Position numbers and translations under genes: made by a program. This document shows positions 15,017 to 41,395 of a DNA stretch of 64,000 bases, piece after piece (positions within the stretch are counted from its first letter, which is position 1; the number at the start of each line of letters is the position of its first letter). A model generated the notes under the pieces. That model was not told the origin of the DNA. It saw only the letters and a program-made list of their open reading frames with translations, and ran no database searches. The DNA is from Flavobacterium sp. N1994 (GTDB lineage Bacteria; Bacteroidota; Bacteroidia; Flavobacteriales; Flavobacteriaceae). Where the stretch lies: assembly GCF_025947145.1 (NCBI RefSeq), contig NZ_CP109999.1, positions 248,001-312,000 of the forward strand, read 5' to 3'.

Positions 15017-15040
15017 AGACTTGTCGTGAATGACAAGTCT
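15017..15040 (-). terminator. trp attenuator terminator hairpin
   Basis: Perfect 9-bp stem AGACTTGTC / GACAAGTCT with a 6-base loop, followed on the minus strand by seven U residues (15011-15017). It lies between the leader peptide and trpE, where only attenuation makes sense of a terminator. Bases 15023-15030 (loop plus three bases of the second arm) are complementary to 15079-15086 at the end of the leader peptide gene, giving an 8-bp alternative pairing that would break the terminator. Confidence 0.9.
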
Positions 15041-15079
15041 TTTTATTATTTGGGTTAATGATACCAATAATGGACTACT

Positions 15080-15136
15080 TCACGACGACTGACGTAAATT
15101 ATTCCACCACCAAGTATTATTTAAAATTGTGCTCAT
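15080..15136 (-). CDS. trpL: trp operon leader peptide with three consecutive Trp codons
   Basis: An 18-residue open frame, MSTILNNTWWWNNLRQSS, ending in TGA. Three tandem TGG codons (15104-15112) in an 18-codon frame just upstream of a terminator and trpE are diagnostic of ribosome-mediated attenuation. The segment GTCGTGAA (15079-15086), which spans the stop codon, can pair with TTCACGAC in the terminator. When charged tRNA-Trp is scarce the ribosome stalls on WWW and leaves that segment free to disrupt the terminator; when it is plentiful the ribosome reaches the stop, masks the segment, and transcription ends. Confidence 0.92.
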   Translation of the reverse strand: MSTILNNTWWWNNLRQSS

Positions 15137-15153
15137 AATGCTATTGATTGAAA

Positions 15154-15184
15154 CAAATGTAGTGATGTGTTTTTAATTTTCAAA
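15154..15184 (-). promoter_or_regulatory. trp operon promoter
   Basis: On the minus strand, TTTG (15181-15184), a 19-base spacer, then TACATTTG (15154-15161). This is a full match to the Bacteroidota TTTG-N17-23-TAnnTTTG consensus. Transcription should start near 15147-15150, about 12 bases before the leader peptide start. Confidence 0.8.
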
Positions 15185-33102: not shown

Positions 33103-33182
33103 TTACGACACCAGAGCTTTTCTCGACTGTAAGGAGCGCAACGGAATAAATTAATAATTACGAACTACCAATTGGGATACCC
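33103..33182. other. Non-coding stretch before the tandem repeat
   Basis: From 33103 the DNA holds no supported gene. It has short AATTACGA-type intergenic motifs seen elsewhere in the window (for example 30626-30660), then the tandem array. I saw no promoter or terminator here. Confidence 0.6.
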
Positions 33183-33476
33183 CATTTATGTATGGGGATG
33201 CTCTCTTGAGAAACGGGGGTGCTCCATTTAGCTATGGGGGTGCTTCATTTAGCTATGGGGGTACTTCATTTAGCTACGGGGATGCTCTATTTAGCTGTGG
33301 GGGTACTTCATTTAGCTTTGGGGATGCTTTATTTAGCTATGGGGGTACTTCATTTAGCTGTGGGGGTACTCCATTTAGCTTTGGGGATGCTCTATTTAGC
33401 TATGGGGGTACTTCATTTAGCTATGGGGGTACTTCATTTAGCTGTGGGGATGCTCCATTTAGCTACGGCGATGCAT
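33183..33476. repeat. Tandem 21-bp repeat, twelve regular units plus two degenerate edge units
   Basis: Twelve 21-bp units run without gaps from 33225 to 33476, consensus CATTTAGCTATGGGGGTACTT; two degenerate units precede them. Variation is confined to a few positions: TAT/TAC/TGT/TTT in the middle, and GGTACT versus GATGCT at the end, the latter two varying together. A period of 7 codons leaves two plus-strand frames open (33188-33478 and 33219-33557), but no motif or codon evidence supports a protein. It looks like a recently expanded minisatellite. Confidence 0.9.
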
Positions 33477-33567
33477 GATTACTATTTTTACAGCGCCTTT
33501 TTTTGCTACAAAATGGGATTGAAATTTGCGGTTGAGGATATAGTTAGGGAAGGATAGAAATAAAAAA

Positions 33568-33587
33568 AGTCCTAGTGAGGTAGGACT
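33568..33587 (-). terminator. Terminator for the minus-strand accessory unit
   Basis: On the minus strand, AGTCCTA / TAGGACT with a 6-base loop, then seven T residues. It lies about 70 bases beyond the stop codon of the 33656-34195 gene and ends that unit. Confidence 0.75.
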
Positions 33588-33655
33588 GAGGGTTTTTAGT
33601 TATAGACAAGAAAAAAGTACACGAAGGGATTCGTGCGGGAGCGTAGTGGTAGTTT

Positions 33656-34195
33656 TTATATACTTAAACTTTTATAATAAGATTTAATAAATTCAGAATC
33701 AACCCACTCTAATTCTTTTACAAAGTCATTAAGATTTGTATGTTCATATTCTTTATTCATTAAATCACTTTCTGTCATTAAATTAGCAACTTCAAGTCGT
33801 GAGATTACGATGCTTTTAAGTTTAGCTTGATTTGTATTTCTTGGCTCAAAATCTTTTACATATTTTATTATCAAATCTATTTCGGTTCCTTCAAATATAT
33901 TTTGATTTCCACTTTCAGTGTCTGTATAGTCTATTGTCATGCAAAGAATTATTATCAAAACCCCTTGCATGTAAAAATCTTTAACATCTTCATAAAGAAA
34001 TTTGTCACCATTCAATGATAGATATTCCCAATATTTACTTTGAAAAGATACCTTTGGTATAAAAACATTAAAAAGATCATTAGTATTTTCATCATATATC
34101 CAAAGAATATCCTTCTTTAGTTGATTAAGTTCAACCCAATTAATTTCTTTCTGTTTTCCATCAGAAGTTATCCTAAATATTGGTAACTCTTTCAT
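33656..34195 (-). CDS. Hypothetical protein, cytosolic
   Basis: A 179-residue protein I do not recognise. It has no signal peptide. KKDILWIYDENTNDLFNVFIPK near the N-terminus and the acidic TDTESGNQNIFEGTEIDLIIKYVKDF region, shortened here as NIFEGTEIDLIIKYVK, suggest an alpha/beta fold. A possible secondary role as an immunity or toxin-antitoxin-linked protein cannot be judged. It is preceded by junction element 34233-34374 and followed by a terminator, like a separate cassette. Composition is AT-rich, unlike codon-optimised core genes. Confidence 0.6.
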   Translation of the reverse strand: MKELPIFRITSDGKQKEINWVELNQLKKDILWIYDENTNDLFNVFIPKVSFQSKYWEYLSLNGDKFLYEDVKDFYMQGVLIIILCMTIDYTDTESGNQNIFEGTEIDLIIKYVKDFEPRNTNQAKLKSIVISRLEVANLMTESDLMNKEYEHTNLNDFVKELEWVDSEFIKSYYKSLSI

Positions 34196-34232
34196 GTTGT
34201 CTTTATTTAAGATTTAGTACTCAAAAATTGCC

Positions 34233-34374
34233 GCTAACGTTCCGCGGCTTCTCGCAGTGGCGACAACTTTCCGCTTTGTTGTAAAGATATGTAAATTTCC
34301 TTTTGAGTAATTTCCGGCTAAAGAAAAATAAACCAGCCATTGTGCGAAACCGCTGTTAGCGGCTGTGCGTTAGC
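34233..34374 (-). repeat. Junction element A: 142-bp imperfect palindrome between accessory genes
   Basis: The element starts just after the 34376-34612 stop codon and ends 37 bases before the next start codon. Its ends are perfect 7-bp inverted repeats (minus strand GCTAACG at 34368-34374, CGTTAGC at 34233-34239). Inner arms also pair with bulges: GCCA/TGGC, TGCGA/TCGCA and CCGC/GCGG (34336-34353 with 34244-34261). It shares CAGCCATTG with element F and a GTTGTAAA-led AT segment with elements D and E. This resembles an attC-like folding site but lacks the canonical attC core. Confidence 0.65.
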
Positions 34375-34375
34375 A

Positions 34376-34612
34376 TTAAAATACCAATCTCAAAAAACAT
34401 ACTAATGCACCAAAAATTAAGCAAACTATGAACATCCAATTTCGGATTATATTTCCTTTAGTAATTATTTCACTAAAATTCTTTTCTCTTCTTATTTTCA
34501 CATTCCACTTCATTATTCTATACATAAAAAAAGCCATTCCAAGAAAAAGAAGCATATAAGAGAAATTCTCCCAATTTTCAGATTTAAAAATTATTCTAAA
34601 AGATAAGTTCAT
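34376..34612 (-). CDS. Small two-helix membrane protein, unknown
   Basis: A 78-residue protein with two probable membrane segments (about 18-32 and 58-76) and a basic loop KWNVKIRREKNF between them. No family is recognised. It is the first gene of a two-gene unit headed by the promoter-bearing element at 34640-34714 and followed directly by junction element A. Its size and lack of homologues are typical of accessory cassette genes. Confidence 0.55.
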   Translation of the reverse strand: MNLSFRIIFKSENWENFSYMLLFLGMAFFMYRIMKWNVKIRREKNFSEIITKGNIIRNWMFIVCLIFGALVCFLRLVF

Positions 34613-34639
34613 TTTTTGTGCACAGTTTTGAGCATTGAA

Positions 34640-34714
34640 GCTAACTTATAAATACCCGCTATTTTGTAACAGTATTATACCAAATATACTATCTTTTTTA
34701 TATAAACCGTCAAA
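34640..34714 (-). promoter_or_regulatory. Promoter-bearing head element B
   Basis: Minus-strand promoter TTTG (34711-34714), 22-base spacer, TATATTTG (34681-34688). It is followed by a conserved tail that includes GTTACAAAATAGCGGGTAT and ends with GTTAGC (34640-34645), 28 bases before the 34376-34612 gene. Related copies head the genes at 36799-37362 and 40308-40955 and a degenerate copy lies at 36506-36590. Confidence 0.7.
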
Positions 34715-34734
34715 AGGCATTCTAAAAGCAATTA

Positions 34735-34812
34735 AGTTGATGAGATACTTCCTTCGTCAGCATGACAAAGTGTGATACATCCAAACAAAAAACTCCGAGT
34801 GGCCTCGGAGTT
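34735..34812 (-). repeat. Dispersed intergenic repeat with terminator (copy 1)
   Basis: Bases 34735-34775 (a GATGAGATACTTCCTTCGTC segment, then a CATGACAAAGTGTGAT segment) recur at 36653-36692 with one central change. The adjoining hairpin AACTCCGAG / CTCGGAGTT (34791-34812) has a T-run on the minus strand and terminates the VOC gene. Together with element B it forms a repeat of about 175 bases; a second copy lies at 36506-36731 with an extra insert of about 50 bases. Confidence 0.8.
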
Positions 34813-34881
34813 CTTGTCTATAAACTTAGTAATGATAACACTGCTATCAGCTATTTTACTAAGATGCAGGAGCACGCTGTT

Positions 34882-35256
34882 TTATCCTATGGAATGGAAT
34901 CCCACTTTGTTTCCTTCTGTGTCGATGAAAAGTGCAATAAAGCCCCTGTTTTCGCCGATATCCGTTTTCGGAAGAATAATGGTTCCCCCCGCACTTTCTA
35001 CTCTGCTTAACGGAACCGAAAGGTCGTTGCCGCCATCTAAGTATACCGTTGTGCCCGTCGTTGCAGGAACAAAGTTTTCACCACTAGCAATGGCTCCGCC
35101 AAATCCGCCTTTTTGAGGATCAGACGGTAAATAGGCATATTGCATATGAGGATTAGGGTCTTCTTGAATTTGAGCATCTAAGACTGTAGCATAAAATGCT
35201 TTTGCTCTGGCGAAATCTGTTGCTGGGATTTCAAACCAATTTAAAGTATTTACCAT
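34882..35256 (-). CDS. VOC-superfamily (glyoxalase-like) protein
   Basis: A 124-residue vicinal-oxygen-chelate domain protein. VNTLNWFEIPATDFARAKAFYATVL is the N-terminal strand-helix block, shown in shorter form as NWFEIPATDFARAKAFY, and DTEGNKVGFHS is the C-terminal Glu-bearing strand. Two paired beta-alpha-beta-beta-beta halves are complete. These small proteins bind metal or act as lyases, isomerases or drug-binding proteins; without partner data the function is open. It lies 44 bases after the azoreductase gene on the same strand, possibly co-expressed. Confidence 0.85.
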   Translation of the reverse strand: MVNTLNWFEIPATDFARAKAFYATVLDAQIQEDPNPHMQYAYLPSDPQKGGFGGAIASGENFVPATTGTTVYLDGGNDLSVPLSRVESAGGTIILPKTDIGENRGFIALFIDTEGNKVGFHSIG

Positions 35257-35300
35257 GTTTATTAATTTTAAGTTGTTTTTATTATTTAGTTGTTAAGCCA

Positions 35301-35927
35301 TCAAGCAAACACAGGTAACACCAACTGATCTATCTGGGTCTTGGCATTTTGTGTTATCTCCTCAGCGTTGAACAAAAGTCCGGAAGCATCAATAATCTGC
35401 ACGTCTTGAATACCCAAGGTTTGCCACAAATACGTCGCATACGGAGTCGCAAAATCATTCTCGCTGCCTATAGCGGTGCCTCCGCTGGTAAAGAGGATGT
35501 AAATGCTACGGGCCTTGAGTAAGCCTTGCCTAACTCCGTTGATGTATCCAAAGGTCACGCCAAGACGGCTGATATGGTCAACGTACGCCTTAAAAGTGGA
35601 GGGAATGGTCCAGTTGTAGACCGGCAAGCCGAGCACCACTATATCAGCAGCGAGGAGTTCGGCCACCATTTCGTTAGAAAGTTGTATGGCGGCTTGCATG
35701 GTTGGGGTTGGGTTTTGCATGGCGTACAAACTCCCCTCAACGAACGCCTCTGTTGGGAGCGGTATACCTGCTGCTAAATCTCGAGTCGTGACGTTAGCCT
35801 CGGGATATTCCTGCAACAGACGAGCCACCATGTGGTCGGTTAGGTGTCGGGACACGGAATCGGCATAACGCGAGCTGCTGTCTATTCGCAGAATTTCAAG
35901 AGGGCGGGAGGGAGCGTTGTTACTCAT
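35301..35927 (-). CDS. azoR: FMN-dependent NADH-azoreductase (AzoR-like)
   Basis: A 208-residue flavodoxin-like FMN enzyme reducing azo bonds and quinones with NADH. ILRIDSSSRYADSVSRHLTDH at the N-terminus holds the FMN phosphate loop, shown as DSSSRYADSVSRHL. VYNWTIPSTFKAYVDHISR is the substrate/flavin block, and FTSGGTAIGSENDFATPY the central loop. The composition stands out: one 60-base line I counted (35521-35580) has 30 G or C, against roughly a third nearby, and Gly/Ala/Arg codons look unlike neighbours. Recent transfer is therefore possible. The HxlR gene is divergent from it. Confidence 0.9.
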   Translation of the reverse strand: MSNNAPSRPLEILRIDSSSRYADSVSRHLTDHMVARLLQEYPEANVTTRDLAAGIPLPTEAFVEGSLYAMQNPTPTMQAAIQLSNEMVAELLAADIVVLGLPVYNWTIPSTFKAYVDHISRLGVTFGYINGVRQGLLKARSIYILFTSGGTAIGSENDFATPYATYLWQTLGIQDVQIIDASGLLFNAEEITQNAKTQIDQLVLPVFA

Positions 35928-35952
35928 GATAAAAAGAAATTAAATGAAGTGA

Positions 35953-35990
35953 TTGATTTTTTATTATTTCAATAGTTTTGTTTACTATTG
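35953..35990. promoter_or_regulatory. HxlR promoter and palindrome in the azoR-hxlR intergenic region
   Basis: Inverted repeat CAATAGT-TTTGTTT-ACTATTG (35970-35990) lies between the divergent azoR and HxlR genes. A TAGTTTTG -7 element with TTG 17 bases earlier (35953-35980) reads toward HxlR and overlaps the palindrome. It is a good candidate binding site for the HxlR regulator controlling both genes. Confidence 0.55.
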
Positions 35991-36050
35991 TAGTGCAAAT
36001 ATTGAGAGTTATATTTATTCTCACAAGTAGGACATTTTAAATGTGTAAGT

Positions 36051-36434
36051 ATGAATAACAATACTAATATTGATAATCAAGAAGTTGAAAACGAAAAAAA
36101 AATTGTTTTTGATGAAAAATCTTGCCCAGTAACGGCAACCATGCAAGTTTTGGGTGGGAAATGGAAAGCCATTTTAATTAATGCTATCTATCATACCTCT
36201 CCAGCAAGGTTTGGAGAATTGAAGCGAAGTGTCAAGGGAATTACGCAATCTATGCTTACTCAGCAGTTGCGAGAATTAGAAGATGATGGGTTAATAAGCC
36301 GGAAAATTTATGCTGAAATCCCACCCAGGGTTGAATACACTTTAACCGAGTTTGGGCTTACCTTATCGCCCATCATGATATCTATGGCCGAGTGGGGAAA
36401 AGAATACCGAATGAAAAAACAAAAGGTGGAATAG
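36051..36434 (+). CDS. HxlR-family transcriptional regulator
   Basis: A 127-residue winged-helix protein. CPVTATMQVLGGKWKAILI (about 24-42) is the signature start with the conserved cysteine, RFGELKRSVKGITQSMLTQQLRELEDDGL, given here as the RFGELKR and MLTQQLRELE parts, is the recognition region, and PPRVEYTLTEFG the wing. Many HxlR proteins sense quinones or aldehydes through the cysteine and regulate adjacent reductases, so control of the divergent azoR gene is likely. The gene is one of the few plus-strand genes in this region. Confidence 0.93.
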   Translation: MNNNTNIDNQEVENEKKIVFDEKSCPVTATMQVLGGKWKAILINAIYHTSPARFGELKRSVKGITQSMLTQQLRELEDDGLISRKIYAEIPPRVEYTLTEFGLTLSPIMISMAEWGKEYRMKKQKVE

Positions 36435-36505
36435 GCAAATTGCTTGCTCTTTAGTTTTTGCGAAGTGTTGGCATTTTGTTCCTTGTTTTTCTGAAGTATG
36501 TTTAC

Positions 36506-36731
36506 CTAATTTGTATATCCTCGCTATTTTGGAGTGGTAGTAACTGGAATTTACTCTCTTTTTATATAATCCGCCAAAGGCATGCTAAAAACAATGAAAA
36601 TGGGGTAAAAACCAACAGGGGTTTCCCTGCTGCCAAACTATTAGGACTAAAGTTGATGAGATACTTCCTTCGTCAGTATGACAAAGTGTGATGACATTTA
36701 AACAAAAAACTCCGATTTGCCTTGGAGGCTT
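36506..36731 (-). repeat. Dispersed intergenic repeat (copy 2) with degenerate head element
   Basis: A gene-free stretch that aligns with 34640-34812. At 36506-36590 lies a head element whose -33 (CAAA at 36575-36578) is intact but whose -7 is TAAATTCC on the minus strand, probably inactive. At about 36598-36650 it carries an extra insert with a CAGGG/CCCTG hairpin. At 36653-36692 lies the GATGAGATAC...GTGTGAT segment, and at 36708-36731 a decayed terminator hairpin. No supported gene occurs between 36435 and 36798. Confidence 0.7.
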
Positions 36732-36798
36732 TAATTATAAATTTACTAAAACTAAAACGTGAACTCACTGCAAAATTTACAATTGTTTGAGACGGTTG

Positions 36799-37362
36799 TT
36801 AACTTTTGCCATGGCTATCTAGTACTAATTTCTTTAAATCATATTTTAATATAATATGCGTAGTCAAAACTGGAGGATTCCCTGCAAAATTATCTCGTAT
36901 TGTAGTAAAATATATAGTTTGTTTATCAAATATGAAAATTCGGCAAGTTTTATCAGTAGGCCTCATACTTATAAAACCAGAGGCATCAAATATGTATAAA
37001 TCCTTAGTGCTTTTAGAATTTTGAGACATTACATAGCCAAGCTTTTCACAATATTCTTTGACCAACTTCTTATTTTTAGCCTTTTCATTTTGCGTTATAA
37101 TTTTCGAGAGACATTTTTCTGTTGCTTTTCTGTAAATTCCATATATACTAATTAAACTAACAATGAAAAGCAAATAATATTCACTTCCTGTTTTTATTTT
37201 ATTTCTATATGGATCAAAATAAACTAAAAATGGCATGATGAATACAATACAGAAAAAAAAATAAACACACAATGAATCAAATTTCTCAAACCACTTTTCT
37301 GGATAGATTAATTTCTTTTGCTCAAGGCTTTTATTAATATCGATGTCTTTTAAATTTCGCAT
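36799..37362 (-). CDS. Two-TM membrane protein, unknown function
   Basis: A 187-residue protein with two adjacent hydrophobic segments (about 31-48 and 64-78), then a cytosolic or periplasmic tail. The tail has DKTCRIFIFDKQTIYFTTIRDN, shortened as CRIFIFDKQTIYFTTI, and ends LILDSHGKS-like. I do not recognise a family. It is preceded by head element C and followed by the degenerate terminator of repeat copy 2, so it forms a single-gene unit. AT-rich composition and lack of known relatives fit an accessory gene. Confidence 0.55.
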   Translation of the reverse strand: MRNLKDIDINKSLEQKKLIYPEKWFEKFDSLCVYFFFCIVFIMPFLVYFDPYRNKIKTGSEYYLLFIVSLISIYGIYRKATEKCLSKIITQNEKAKNKKLVKEYCEKLGYVMSQNSKSTKDLYIFDASGFISMRPTDKTCRIFIFDKQTIYFTTIRDNFAGNPPVLTTHIILKYDLKKLVLDSHGKS

Positions 37363-37382
37363 GTAATGGTTGCATTAATCTT

Positions 37383-37450
37383 ACATAACCCCGTCATTTT
37401 GTAGCGGTATTACCTCAAATATACCCTCTTTTATATATAAGCTGTCACTT
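37383..37450 (-). promoter_or_regulatory. Head element C, promoter-bearing
   Basis: Minus-strand TATATTTG (37416-37423), then a tail with AATACCGCTACAAAATGACG related to element B. The -33 position holds GTGAC instead of TTTG, so this copy may be weak. It lies 21 bases upstream of the 36799-37362 gene. Confidence 0.5.
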
Positions 37451-37513
37451 ACTACCTAGAACATACAACCTACAACCTACAACTAAGGAATTATAGAGGA
37501 GTAGCGGTATAAA

Positions 37514-38071
37514 TTATTCTGACTGTTCTTGTTCTGCTTGGATTCTTTTTAGTTCTTCCAATTCATCTTGACTCACTACCCAAGTTTTGGACCATTTATC
37601 ATGCCATCCGTAGCTGTATTTATTGCCAGTACAGGAAAAAGGTTCAAAGGGTACCACTCGAATTAAAGATCTTAAAAGTATGGTCATTGAATCGGGGGCA
37701 TTGCCATATTCGTCAATTACCCTGCATTTAGTAATAAATTTTCCTGGTGTTCTTTGCCAAATGGATTCAAAGATGGCATAATAAAACACGTAGAGAAAAG
37801 CATTAAAAGCCAAATTGAAGGCACTTGCTTGAAGATCCGTATCAAATGTTATGCTAACATTGGCATTTTCTAGCAGATGACCTATAGCTATGAGTAAAAG
37901 GCGAAATAAAATTATATCAATAATATAATGTCCTATTCGTTTAGTCACCTCAACGCTTTTGACTTGACGTTGCAATATATATTCTTCAGCATCGCGTTCC
38001 CGATTGCCGTATTCATCCATAACATATACTGTTCCTAATCTTGTTTCTGTTAACTCTGTGATTTTTTTCAT
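37514..38071 (-). CDS. RDD-family membrane protein
   Basis: A 185-residue protein with an RDD domain. Two or three membrane segments lie at about 45-65, 85-105 and possibly 138-150, with the arginine/aspartate-rich start ATKRIGHYIIDI-like (KRIGHYIIDIILF) and WQRTPGKFITKCRVIDEYG after the second helix. Function in this family is unknown, with transport suggested. It lies between element D and head element C as part of the larger minus-strand accessory unit. The C-terminal Glu/Gln-rich tail is probably cytosolic. Confidence 0.8.
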   Translation of the reverse strand: MKKITELTETRLGTVYVMDEYGNRERDAEEYILQRQVKSVEVTKRIGHYIIDIILFRLLLIAIGHLLENANVSITFDTDLQASAFNLAFNAFLYVFYYAIFESIWQRTPGKFITKCRVIDEYGNAPDSMTILLRSLIRVVPFEPFSCTGNKYSYGWHDKWSKTWVVSQDELEELKRIQAEQEQSE

Positions 38072-38093
38072 ATAGATGATTAAGCTTGCTTAC

Positions 38094-38145
38094 AACGTGC
38101 TGACGCCTTTCCTCTTTGGTTGTAAATATTTAGAAATATCTTTTT
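38094..38145 (-). repeat. Junction element D
   Basis: The element runs from the shared AACGT end (38094-38098, 23 bases upstream of the RDD start) to an AT-rich segment at 38119-38145 that matches element E at 25 of 27 bases (GTTGTAAATAT, then TAGAAATATC). In the direction of transcription it lies just before the next start codon, like the other junctions. No 5' half with CAGCCATTG is visible here. Confidence 0.6.
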
Positions 38146-38203
38146 AGAGGGTTATGGTTTATAAAGTATATGAGGTGGTGCTTGAAAGGGGTTTTATTAG
38201 AAG

Positions 38204-38683
38204 TTATTCTATTTGCTTTTCAATTTCAATTAGTGCTTCTTGAAATCCAATTGGATAGTTACCTTTTATAAATTCAGATACCATACAGTCTTTAATTATT
38301 AAATTAGTTTCCTTACTTGTTAATTTTTTCGATACAAAATCACAATTCTTAATTTGAATTTGTCCTTTACTTCTATAAACAACTATGAAAATACACCCAT
38401 TTTTTGATTGTTTAACCAATGCTGACGTGTAATCTGAAATATTTTTATATGGTAAAATCGAATTGATTGTAACGATTATAATTGTTACGCCTGTTTTGTC
38501 CTTAATTGATTTTAATGTAGATGTTAAGCTTTCTTCTTGCCATGGGTATAATATTTCGTCAACATCATTAACAAATTTTTCTATTTCAGGTAACTTGTTT
38601 GTTTCATCAAAGTTTTTAATTTCGTTTTGACTAAAACTGAAACTAAAAAAGAATAGTATAATAATTGTAAGTGTTCTTTTCAA
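38204..38683 (-). CDS. TPM-domain secreted protein
   Basis: A 159-residue protein with a Sec signal peptide (about 1-18, SFSFSQ end) and a TPM domain (formerly DUF477). YPWQEESLTSTLKSIKDKTGVTI, shortened as SLTSTLKSIKDKTGVTIIIV, is the first helix-strand, followed by GCIFIVVYRSKGQIQIKN. No C-terminal membrane helix is present, unlike many TPM proteins. In plants and cyanobacteria the domain is linked to photosystem repair; in bacteria its role is unclear. It lies between junction elements D and E. Confidence 0.8.
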   Translation of the reverse strand: MKRTLTIIILFFFSFSFSQNEIKNFDETNKLPEIEKFVNDVDEILYPWQEESLTSTLKSIKDKTGVTIIIVTINSILPYKNISDYTSALVKQSKNGCIFIVVYRSKGQIQIKNCDFVSKKLTSKETNLIIKDCMVSEFIKGNYPIGFQEALIEIEKQIE

Positions 38684-38707
38684 AAGTATTGAGGTTTAAT
38701 TGTTTAT

Positions 38708-38776
38708 AACGTTACATGTGTTCAGGCAATGAAGTCTTTATTGTTTAGTTGTAAATATATAGAAATATCCTTTTTT
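38708..38776 (-). repeat. Junction element E
   Basis: It runs from the shared AACGT end (38708-38712, 25 bases before the TPM start) to an AT-rich segment starting GTTGTAAA at 38748. That segment matches element D at 25 of 27 bases and element A at about 23 of 27. In minus orientation it follows the stop codon of the hydrolase gene. Confidence 0.6.
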
Positions 38777-38792
38777 ATTTTCATTCTGTATC

Positions 38793-40100
38793 TTAGTTGA
38801 AAATGTCATAAAACCTCCAATAGGCAAATAGTCCAATTAGTATAAGGTAAATAAGATTGTTTAGGGTAAATAGTCCTGTGGCAAAGAAACTCCAACTTTT
38901 CTCTTTTATTAGTTTGTAATTCATCACACCAAAAGGGATTATCAGCAGTAGTACTAGGAATGGTAGGTATGAAGTTACACTTATAAAAATATTTTTTGGG
39001 TCTTTATAGGGTGCTGGAAAGTAAAAAACGGAAATGGGTCCGCTTAACACATACATATAATAGCATAGCATTAGGCCAATAGGAAACAGCATTAGTTGTA
39101 GATAAGCATACTTTTTAGGCTCCCTTCTTCTGAAATACTGGATTAGAAAGAATAGGGAAGTCAGTAAAAAAAATCCGGCACAAGCTATTATAAATAGGCC
39201 TATTACCATGCTGTCTTTTGGGGTTTTGTAATGGCGTAGTTTTTCGAATTCAGGGTTATGCGGGAATAGTGTTTCTATTGGAATTATGTGGTCGCCCTTT
39301 TTTAATTCCTCGCTTAGGTTGAATTGAACGGTGGTCTTATAGTTGTGGTAAAAATATAAGTTTACCGTTCCGTTCTTTAAGTCCCATATAGACGAAAGTA
39401 AAGTTCCATCTCCAATTTTTTGTCTGCAAACGTGCATCGTATCCGATAATGCGGTGCAGAACTGTAGTGTGGTGTCGATGCCGTTCTTTAAAAACGCTAC
39501 TCCTTTACGGTATCGGTCTACTTTATTGGCATTTTGTTCTGGCGTTATGGAAGGGCAGAAGTTGGATATCACATAAGTCGGTTTGTTTCCGATAGTCAAT
39601 ATATAAGGCTCAACCACAAGATATTTCCCAGATTTATCTACATAAATAAAAACATCTTCCATGAAATAGCTGTGATCATACTGGCTAATATATTTTTGGA
39701 CCTCTTCTACTGTTTTGCAAGTGTGTAAAATGTCTTTCAAATATTGGGTGGGGTTGGCTATAGTTTTTTTGTTGGCAAAGGGTTCTTGCTGGGGGTGGTA
39801 GGAAACCAATCTTTCAAAGGCGAGCCCCATTTCATTCATTCCGGATTGGGGTGCGTATCCGTTGGCTCCGTCAAATCTTGAACCTGTAAATGCAGCTCCG
39901 TATTTACCGTTACCTCTTCCTTTTTCAAACCAAATATGAGGTGTTACTCTCCAAGCATCTTCGTTGCTTCCTAATATGGTCTTATTCCCAATGGTAATTT
40001 TATATCCACTACAGGCCATACTGTCTTGTGAAACGGCAAAGGTTATAACCATCAATAAGATAAGTTTCACCGTTTGTAATTTTTTTATTGTCGTCATCAT
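38793..40100 (-). CDS. Choloylglycine-hydrolase-like protein with C-terminal membrane domain
   Basis: A 435-residue protein fusing an Ntn-type linear-amide hydrolase (C45/choloylglycine fold) to about 130 residues of membrane helices. The signal peptide ends at about residue 29 in SMACSGYKITIG, so cleavage would expose Cys30 as the N-terminal nucleophile; GSNEDAW and the later RLVSYHPQ follow. The C-terminal region has about four helices (about 305-325, 345-360, 375-395, 410-430). It may degrade an amide-containing envelope or host-derived compound at the membrane; substrate is not evident. It lies between junction elements F and E. Confidence 0.75.
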   Translation of the reverse strand: MMTTIKKLQTVKLILLMVITFAVSQDSMACSGYKITIGNKTILGSNEDAWRVTPHIWFEKGRGNGKYGAAFTGSRFDGANGYAPQSGMNEMGLAFERLVSYHPQQEPFANKKTIANPTQYLKDILHTCKTVEEVQKYISQYDHSYFMEDVFIYVDKSGKYLVVEPYILTIGNKPTYVISNFCPSITPEQNANKVDRYRKGVAFLKNGIDTTLQFCTALSDTMHVCRQKIGDGTLLSSIWDLKNGTVNLYFYHNYKTTVQFNLSEELKKGDHIIPIETLFPHNPEFEKLRHYKTPKDSMVIGLFIIACAGFFLLTSLFFLIQYFRRREPKKYAYLQLMLFPIGLMLCYYMYVLSGPISVFYFPAPYKDPKNIFISVTSYLPFLVLLLIIPFGVMNYKLIKEKSWSFFATGLFTLNNLIYLILIGLFAYWRFYDIFN

Positions 40101-40109
40101 AATTGGTAT

Positions 40110-40303
40110 AACGTGTGATTTGATTTTTTATTGTTTGATTTTGTGGTTGAAGGGTGGTTGTAAAAAGTAGTTAACGAATCGTCCGTTTGCTGAGAGTAGC
40201 GTTATTCTATCGCGGAACATTTAAATATATTAAAAATTTCCCGTAGCCGTGAACTTTCCAAAAAAAACCGAAATCAGCCATTGCTACACGGTTGTTACAA
40301 GAC
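40110..40303 (-). repeat. Junction element F
   Basis: The element fills the gap between the 40308-40955 stop codon and the hydrolase start (40100). It has CAGCCATTG at 40275-40283, shared with element A. GTTGTAAA at 40157-40164 and AACGT at 40110-40114 are also shared. Minus-strand CCGTGTAGC and GGCTACGGG can fold with a 2-base bulge, giving an inner stem. Its AACGT end lies 9 bases before the hydrolase start codon. Confidence 0.6.
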
Positions 40304-40307
40304 GTTT

Positions 40308-40955
40308 TTATTCTGAAGCGACTTTAAATTTAATGTTTATATTTTCACTGCTTTTTAATTTCTCTTTGGTTATCATCTCGCCTTTAAAATTGTAAAAATA
40401 CTTTTCTATAATAAGCCCATTTGGGATATTTTTTCTGCTTTTCCATACTTCATATGCAGTGCAAAAGGTCAACAAAGGTTTGATGTTTGCAGAGGTATCA
40501 ATTACATAGATTTCTCTACCAAGTTTTTTCTTCTTTTCATTTTTTATTACATTGTTTCTCAACATAAAACGTTTGCAAGTTCTATTGTTTAAAACGGTAT
40601 CTTTTAATTCTTCAAAATCATAATTGTCAACTTGAAATTTATATGGGTTTTGATATGGTAATAACGTTCCATTTTTCAATAGAATTTCAGATTTTGTTAA
40701 ATCTTCATGTTTTATTTGGCCTTTCCAGTAAATTCCATTTTGATCCAAAAGTGTAACATCTTCTCTATTATTATCAAAAGTATTGTTAGTAGAAAAGTAG
40801 CTGTTGTCTTGCTCATTTAAAAAATAAGAAACAAGATGGTTTTTCTTTTGGTTTTTTAAATCGGTAATTTCATAAGTCAATTTTCGATTGAAATTGTACT
40901 CATAAGTTTGAGATAAAAAGAATAAACAAAACCCTATTTTTAGCAGTGTCGTCAT
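40308..40955 (-). CDS. Secreted protein, unknown function
   Basis: A 215-residue protein with a probable signal peptide (about 1-20, FLSQTYEY end). The mature part is beta-rich, with repeated charged segments (NNNTFDNNREDVTLLDQNG and TCKRFMLRNNVIKNEKKKKLG, both shortened). I do not recognise a family; the content of Asn and Lys suggests a small surface or periplasmic protein. It is the first gene of the longest minus-strand accessory unit and is headed by element G with a TACATTTG -7. Confidence 0.6.
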   Translation of the reverse strand: MTTLLKIGFCLFFLSQTYEYNFNRKLTYEITDLKNQKKNHLVSYFLNEQDNSYFSTNNTFDNNREDVTLLDQNGIYWKGQIKHEDLTKSEILLKNGTLLPYQNPYKFQVDNYDFEELKDTVLNNRTCKRFMLRNNVIKNEKKKKLGREIYVIDTSANIKPLLTFCTAYEVWKSRKNIPNGLIIEKYFYNFKGEMITKEKLKSSENINIKFKVASE

Positions 40956-40964
40956 AAAATGGCT

Positions 40965-41079
40965 TGTAACTTGTATACCCCCGTTACTTTATCCACTGTA
41001 TACAACCCTTTTTTGGTTGACAGTTCCTATTTTGTAACTGTATTCAATCAAATGTACTATTATTTTTAAAACTGCTAAA
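40965..41079 (-). promoter_or_regulatory. Head element G, promoter-bearing with an insert
   Basis: Minus-strand TACATTTG (41049-41056) then GTTACAAAATA as in element B, but with about 46 extra bases before the conserved end GTATACAAGTTACAAGCC near the 40308-40955 start. The -33 has TTTAG. It is the first promoter of the longest accessory unit. Confidence 0.55.
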
Positions 41080-41096
41080 TGTATAAAAGGATTTTT

Positions 41097-41395
41097 ATTA
41101 GATTTTCCATCTTCTTTTTATGTTGTTCTATATTGGTTTGATATTCGTTCGGTAAAAGGTCCATTTTGCCAAAACGCTACCGAACGAATATCGAACATGT
41201 ATCGAACAAACTACACTTAATGATCGAACAAAGAGACAATATAGGACAAAACCGGACATTATCGGACATGCTAATGGCACTATGGGTTGTCTAATAGAAA
41301 AGGGATTTGCTATATAACAGTTAGAAAAGTTTACAAAAAAACTCCGAGTTCCCTCGAAGTTGTTATATAAAATAGATGAGAGATCTAGAGTTAAA
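41097..41395. other. Gene-free boundary region with 15-bp inverted repeat and short phased repeats
   Basis: No supported gene occurs between 40956 and 41395. A perfect 15-bp inverted repeat GATATTCGTTCGGTA / TACCGAACGAATATC lies at 41140-41154 and 41178-41192 with a 23-base loop. Further short copies of TCGAACA and GGACA follow at roughly helical intervals to about 41272. The terminator of ridA lies at 41340-41361. Confidence 0.6.
41340..41361 (-). terminator. Terminator of ridA
   Basis: Stem AACTCCGAG / CTCGAAGTT (one mismatch) with a 4-base loop and a T-run on the minus strand, 35 bases after the ridA stop. The stem resembles the hairpins in the dispersed repeats. Confidence 0.7.

Follow-up and report, generated by a model that had tools for sequence, protein, structure and literature searches.

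In the IntI/attC integrons, the closest described systems to the one considered here, the R boxes of the attC sites read RYYYAAC and GTTRRRY. The integrase IntI carries an additional domain around patch III, which portions of two papers treat as a defining trait (PMC9668308; PMC2426708), and an early survey, in the portion concerned with selection, chose integrases by this additional domain or by the intI patch (PMC2426708). In part of the account of Smyshlyaev et al. (2021; PMC8138268), the insert is described as not fully conserved within the integron-like subgroup of tyrosine recombinases. An excerpt of the IntegronFinder 2.0 results gives one complete integron among Bacteroidetes proper, that of Salinibacter ruber M1 (PMC9024848). 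The title of the NCBI model NF040815, site-specific tyrosine recombinase/integron integrase, indicates that relatives of the recombinases discussed below were already suspected; in the open-access literature (preprints and subscription papers lay outside the scope), no description of their arrays was found. Here, a 64-kb window of Flavobacterium sp. N1994 (the whole stretch of DNA analysed, 64,000 nucleotides; G000:C1:248001-312000), taken from a genome of one contig and 3.35 Mb, was followed up. An earlier sequence-only reading had proposed in it a cassette-like array of small genes separated by four related junctions, A, D, E, and F. On the sequence evidence, such junctions are very probably attC-type recombination sites of an integron-like gene-capture system, of which this window holds two recognizable elements and the rest of the genome a recombinase-linked array:

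34232-34364, minus strand: element A, a complete attC-like site with putative crossover C/GTT (the slash marks the crossover) at 34238; covariance model R1, 116 bits, E 3e-23
40169-40303, minus strand: element F, an attC-like site with degenerate arms and putative crossover at 40175; R1, 68 bits, E 1e-12
G000:C1:1649077-1650819: gene of a 581-aa tyrosine recombinase, identified by the integron integrase model, 1.37 Mb from the window in the same genome

When the genome was searched at the DNA level with junction A, four further places emerged, one of them about 3 kb from a recombinase gene scoring on the integron integrase model. A and F are members of a family of attC-like elements of about 130 bp, and both were among the 11 aligned elements on which R1 was trained. 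In this alignment, 89.5% of the cells are paired, compared with 76.9 in shuffles and 23-42% when the alignment is slid, and 24 double changes were counted vs. 9.1 in shuffles. Element A folds with paired arms. With filters off, R1 recognized only A and F above chance in the window, while the whole genome contains 23 places at E<=1 and 18 at E<1e-4, the latter consisting of seven elements in tandem, A, F, and nine others. Further elements were found in related genomes too. Rfam, at gathering thresholds, reported no family at the junctions. The statement that no integrase is encoded in the window also stood, as tblastn with the recombinase found no relative within the 64 kb and one elsewhere in the genome. 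This 581-aa enzyme is the tyrosine recombinase linked to similar arrays that had been asked for: an attI-like site lies 48 bp after its stop codon, followed by the seven tandem elements with genes between them, an array that occupies G000:C1:1652208-1658568.

The family alignment of the recombinase was used to fetch 80 loci, whose isolate-named relatives are mostly Flavobacterium. R1 found 122 elements (E<=0.01) in 34 of these loci; 121 share the strand of the recombinase, and every one of these 121 lies downstream of it. F. silvisoli, for example, has 14 elements and F. celericrescens 12; several other recombinase contigs stop just behind the recombinase gene. Enzymes of a shorter type, about 345 aa, are also accompanied by arrays (13 elements in locus L175, nine in L170), and behind a gene of this type in G130, a genome of one contig, 22 elements extend over 36.6 kb. 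In L174 and L202, which both have short-type enzymes, array and recombinase lie on opposite strands. In-frame stops seen in six short-type genes proved to be ordinary terminators. The attI-like site was located by applying the cassette-end test described below to the first cassette. A script found AAAAAAGTTGTATATATTTGATGATATTTACTA followed across the crossover by GTT, or near variants, in 31 of the 35 loci that have an element downstream. In 29 of these 31, the distance from the stop codon is 31-48 bp, and in the other two it is 87 and 201 bp; among the four remaining loci, the site is visible by eye in L099 and the other three are unexplained. A near copy of attI, GAAGTTGTATAACTTGAGTACATTTACTA before GTT, precedes a cassette start at an element elsewhere in the N1994 genome (L018:7377-7511; G000:C1:3197377), where no recombinase relative was found within the 15-kb stretch. 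After removal of one minus-strand and one gapped match from the 122 and addition of seven elements from N1994, 127 elements were retained, 124 of them with enough flank for analysis of the arms. The absence of the canonical attC core, noted for element A by the sequence-only reading, characterizes the whole family: GTTRRRY was present in 2/124 right arms and RYYYAAC in 6/124 left arms. AAC itself is kept in 119 of 120 elements and GTT in 118 of 120.

Evidence that genes may move together with one element comes from the cassette ends. The circle test asks whether the letters that open a cassette, just behind the crossover, agree with the reverse complement of those that close it, the two ends belonging to neighbouring elements. 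Agreement at >=6 of 7 positions was observed in 80 of 89 pairs, with a shuffled mean of 2.9 of 7, while the two arms of the same element agreed in only 7 of 124 cases; one of the misses, a pair from the N1994 genome, arose when the script chose the wrong AAC, and the count was left uncorrected. The complementarity covers positions 0-9, breaks at position 10 in 89/89 pairs, is present again at 11-14, and is over at 15. This signature is not forced by the search model because R1 pairs only AAC and GTT of the outer arm. In a second set, drawn from the phylum and comprising 108 of 113 matches, 59 of 80 cassette-end pairs agreed vs. 5 of 108 same-element arms. Such complementarity would be expected if cassettes circularize and reopen at C/GTT, which would place the crossover there. 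Moreover, a 1.5-kb cassette with a 445-aa gene of no Pfam family is common to F. piscinae and F. celericrescens, with 99.2% identity over 1563 bp. The identity drops within about 20 bp of both ends, where the flanking letters are the conserved letters of the element, and the neighbours differ; between the two loci, the identity of the recombinase is 68% at the DNA level and 64% at the protein level. A comparison of all 89 cassettes between loci gave four pairs with a common body, and in none of them was a comparable neighbour kept. The end signature and this one shared cassette support mobile cassettes composed of a gene and a single site, which would be circular when free.

For 60 of the 89 cassettes, the rejoined ends were folded, giving z values of -4.1 (top strand) and -5.5 (bottom strand), with the bottom strand more stable in 59/60; the elements as placed in the array fold worse than the rejoined ends. 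These predictions suggest that one folded strand may serve as the substrate. The Bacteroidetes -7 promoter consensus is the basis for reading a loop motif of the elements, TAnnTTTR, as a promoter. It was found on the gene strand of 58/127 elements, most often 45-50 nt ahead of the crossover, compared with 14 elements when shuffled and 15 when the opposite strand was read, and may have promoter activity.

The recombinases resemble IntI and lack its insert. In all 18 array enzymes aligned, the distance from the catalytic Lys to the His is 64-65 residues, compared with 106 in 10/10 IntI (a usable frame was missing in two of 12 IntI loci), so that an insert of about 41 residues is absent from 18/18; three of these enzymes, L087, L100, and L101, are from loci in which no element was detected. 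The array enzymes carry extra N-terminal modules, one in the type of about 345 aa and three in the 581-aa type. The best NCBIfam match of the 581-aa enzyme is TIGR02249, integron integrase, with 219 bits against a curated cut-off of 265, and four relatives of the array group scored 200-238 bits, also under it. The XerC and XerD models gave 167 and 165 bits against cut-offs of 335 and 330. In tests of three enzymes of 340-350 aa, IntI was outscored by the XerA-type model. Among PDB sequences, IntI4 is the best match, and its alignment leaves out 63 residues of the chain vs. 21 of the query between two stretches. When the recombinase part was compared, the predicted folds were nearest to the integron integrase-attC complex and to XerA (pTM of the models 0.36 for the 581-aa and 0.62 for the short enzyme). 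In a tree of 40 rows, the array recombinases group together (90/92), and IntI makes up a separate group (100/99); the support of the array group is moderate, and the long Xer rows leave the position of the root unsure. Ten insert-less enzymes from outside Bacteroidota have spacings of 56-71 residues, therefore the missing insert alone is not diagnostic of the array group.

Within the phylum, R1 elements were found in 60 of 198 sampled genomes and 35 of 102 genera. These counts are lower bounds, as stricter filters were applied and at most 16 candidates were scored per genome; 20 stretches of 11 genomes were inspected. An insert-less recombinase was matched in 38/60 genomes with elements vs. 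31/138 of the others (Fisher p 9e-8). Canonical IntI exceeded the cut-off in 57/198 genomes, only one of which belongs to the class of the window, and its association runs in the opposite direction (9/60 vs. 48/138, p 0.006); none of the 25 element-bearing genomes of that class has it. The nine genomes with both canonical IntI and elements are G076, G081, G090, G099, G111, G128, G165, G171, and G230. At E<=1e-3, R1 found nothing in 16 genomes not labelled Bacteroidota, three of them labelled only "bacterium", an empty answer that is uninformative by itself. A scan of 16 loci outside Bacteroidota for the cassette signature gave one pair each in L105, L107, L108, and L119, of which only L105 and L108 look convincing. 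These cassette-like ends lie near insert-less recombinases at L108:14844-15438, in a Treponema metagenome-assembled genome, and at L105:4345-4834, in Alkaliphilus peptidifermentans, a lead suggesting that the system may reach beyond Bacteroidota.

In the window itself, the short segments from which one junction family had been proposed are all present. AACGT occurs in the four junctions (34236, 38094, 38708, and 40110), as does GTTGTAAA (34278, 38119, 38748, and 40157), CAGCCATTG is common to A (34334) and F (40275), and D and E match at 25/27 positions through the AT segment. On the gene strand, AACGT is the AC/GTT crossover core, which alone is frequent (42 + 49 in the window), and GTTGTAAA has 11 copies on the plus strand of the window and one on the minus strand. 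A and F rise above chance with R1, E stays at chance level, and the single family holds for A and F, with D at most a half and E in the noise. Element F also proved shorter than drawn, 40169-40303: its extension to 40110 came from an alignment wrong at one end, and the AACGT at 40110 scores -11.9 on a right-arm weight matrix. With this matrix, trained without the window, all window positions were ranked on both strands. A took rank 1 (35.3 bits) and D rank 2 (18.5 bits), followed at ranks 3-7 (13.1 to 9.7 bits) by sites elsewhere in the window and at rank 8 by E (9.0 bits), which is within noise because five unrelated sites outscore its right arm. D and E as whole elements were dropped, with no whole-element R1 match above chance. 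The AT segment shared by D and E holds TAnnTTTAC, which resembles the promoter-like loop motif of the true elements; a reading of D as a mere promoter is weakened by its rank. The two junctions are described as follows:

38084-38143, minus strand: D, immediately upstream of the RDD gene; probably a decayed element's right half, with a promoter-like motif and a putative AC/GTT crossover at 38096
38698-38774, minus strand: E, possible remnant of the right half of an element, putative crossover at 38710; within noise, R1 12 bits, chance level

Along the minus strand, the order is a half-attI-like GGGGGTATACAA, the cassette with a 215-aa gene, F, a 435-aa gene, possibly E, a TPM gene, D, and an RDD gene; further down there are a 187-aa gene behind another half-attI-like copy and then a 78-aa gene, A, and a 179-aa gene. 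The start of the cassette closed by F is reverse complementary to its end at 10/11 positions, the next best candidate reaching 7/11. The features are:

40970-40990, minus strand: half-attI-like GGGGGTATACAA before GTT at the start of the F cassette; copies also at 37380-37400, 36510-36530, and 34645-34665
40175-40970, minus strand: cassette closed by F, start GTTACAAGCCATTTT at 40970, gene 40308-40955 (215 aa)
38793-40100, minus strand: 435-aa gene, the first after F; open reading frame, no Pfam family
38204-38683, minus strand: TPM-domain gene after E; Pfam TPM_phosphatase, 9e-15
37514-38071, minus strand: RDD-family membrane protein gene after D; Pfam RDD, 2e-12
34238-34645, minus strand: possible cassette closed by A, start GTTAGCTTCAATGC at 34645, gene 34376-34612 (78 aa)
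33656-34195, minus strand: 179-aa gene, starting 43 bp after the putative A crossover; no Pfam family
33103-41395, no strand: 8.3-kb interval between mgsA and RidA, without counterpart in most relatives

Below the 179-aa gene, R1 found no closing element. AAAATARCGGGGGTATAYAAG has four minus-strand copies in the interval, two of them at proposed cassette starts. The half-attI-like motif, searched through the genome with three mismatches allowed, gave five matches, of which four lie in the interval and the fifth is weak; therefore the copies may be a local duplication, and the idea of a genome-wide second attI was set aside. No cassette features were seen at the glyoxalase, flavodoxin-like, and HxlR genes of the interval; the cassette reading proposed earlier is upheld for A and F. 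These three genes are bracketed by an intergenic direct repeat of about 200 bp, with pieces 71-89% identical (34641-34841 and 36506-36758).

The interval appears to be an insertion. In 11 of 14 relatives, RidA adjoins mgsA (7) or BadF (4), with 7-709 bp between the alignment ends, within a GAPDH-BadF-(mgsA)-RidA-OstA block, which in the remaining three is not visible within the stretch taken. None of ten interval genes was matched in the stretches of the 14 relatives at E<=1e-4. In G013, one of the three without the block, RidA is followed by two other genes and then by two elements, the first of which closes a cassette whose start and end agree by eye; in G012, a small gene and what appears by eye to be half an element lie between RidA and mgsA. 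Cassettes therefore seem to have entered the site beside RidA on more than one occasion. Directly downstream of mgsA, at the margin of the insertion, there is a tandem array of a 21-bp unit (33188-33478), in which TTTAGCT occurs 12 times with a 21-bp period from 33227 to 33458. Between the F cassette and RidA, a 32-bp inverted repeat (41123-41209) has arms 84% complementary and a 23-nt spacer. Outside the interval, a Bacteroidete trp leader RNA (RF01692, 63 bits) was found at 15032-15156 on the minus strand.

It is proposed that an IntI-related tyrosine recombinase would join circular cassettes, each consisting of a gene and one element, into an attI just past its own gene. Occasionally, a cassette would land at a secondary half-attI site, such as that beside RidA in the window, and cassettes at such places, no longer renewed, would decay. 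With no recombinase in the window, A and F may be compared with the integrase-less clusters defined by at least two attC and no integrase nearby, but they are not canonical attC sites and are separated by 5.8 kb. The window looks like a decayed, integrase-less offshoot of the platform elsewhere in the genome. For A and F, the reading as attC-like cassette sites is supported by arm covariation, recombinase-linked arrays, the circle signature, and the shared cassette; recombination itself, secondary insertion in the window, and movement of its cassettes are inferred. A number of observations weigh against the proposal. In the phylum set, 21/80 pairs fall below 6/7, four of them in L202, where the start letters recur and the elements may be another repeat. 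At the cut-off applied, no recombinase was matched in 22 of the 60 element genomes, and 31 genomes match an insert-less recombinase and have no element. In the window, the single-strand fold of F is not better than that of shuffled sequence, the boundary of the A cassette reaches 7/11 and is tied with a candidate 5.9 kb away, only one strong boundary pair was obtained, and a generic scan for the cassette signature detected none; for the cassette-like genes of the window, no homologue was found among the fetched loci.

If the elements were dispersed intergenic repeats (REP-like, MITE-like, or promoter-bearing) that spread by themselves and separate genes by chance, then the single copies scattered over the genome and the promoter-like motif in many elements would be accounted for. 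This is very improbable, since 121 of 122 matches share one orientation relative to the recombinase, a gene with one element is common to two species as a unit, and the cassette-end statistic, in which complementarity joins the ends of the gene-plus-element unit and not the arms of the element, contradicts it. An ordinary IntI/attC integron whose integrase has lost the insert and which surveys overlooked would have the same design, with recombinase, attI, tandem cassettes, and hairpin sites, and would agree with TIGR02249 as the top NCBIfam model for the 581-aa enzyme. It is nevertheless unlikely: the insert is missing in all 18 enzymes compared, the recombinase scores under the IntI cut-off with the XerA-type model ahead for the three shorter enzymes, canonical cores are rare in both arms, the array enzymes group apart from IntI, and both systems coexist in nine genomes. 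For the window alone, it is possible that D and E are look-alike promoters and that the interval is an ordinary genomic island containing two stray elements. TAnnTTTAC lies at the centre of the D/E match, and the whole-element model rejects both junctions, with the right arm of E in the noise. On the other hand, the right arm of D with its cassette-start letters ranks second in the window by a matrix trained elsewhere, and D and E are each followed by a gene at a cassette-like distance.

With attC-type sites of an integron-like system as the preferred reading, we lean towards a broader one, in which a second integron lineage is widespread in Bacteroidota, with candidates in Treponema and Alkaliphilus, having split from IntI before the insert was acquired or arisen in parallel from a XerA-like enzyme. 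It would recombine folded single-stranded sites without the domain supposed to be necessary, and many of its sites would carry promoters of their own, expressing cassettes far from attI. Such a lineage would escape surveys by design, because integrases were picked by the additional domain or the intI patch, as far as that part of the survey goes (PMC2426708). If this is true, then a large group of environmental bacteria has an uncounted cassette economy, cassette capture in general does not require the additional domain, and a comparison of the two enzyme types could test how folded-site recombination evolved. The nine genomes with canonical IntI and elements are natural cases of two integron-type systems per cell.

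Compared with known systems, the arrays share with IntI/attC integrons a recombinase gene with an adjacent attI, tandem one-way cassettes, and attC-like hairpin sites whose structure is conserved while the sequence varies, as seen in the covariation. They also share outer arms complementary within the cassette, AAC/GTT at the putative crossover, and integrase-less clusters (clusters of attC sites lacking integron integrases, CALIN). They differ in the recombinase, which is without the IntI-specific insert, and in the outer arms, which are about 14 bp long and always mismatched at position 10, where the integron box RYYYAAC/GTTRRRY has 7 bp. In the loci of the 581-aa type, attI follows the recombinase gene at its 3' end and the cassettes continue in the same direction, and a promoter-like loop motif is present in nearly half of the elements. 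With the Xer recombinases (XerA/XerC/XerD), the enzymes have in common the fold and the lack of the IntI insert (64-65 residues here, 70-72 in two Xer of the same genome), but they accompany cassette arrays, carry extra N-terminal modules, and separate in the tree. The integron-like subgroup of Smyshlyaev et al. (2021; PMC8138268) likewise has insert-less members, for which the part of that paper concerned gives no cassette arrays or attC-like sites.

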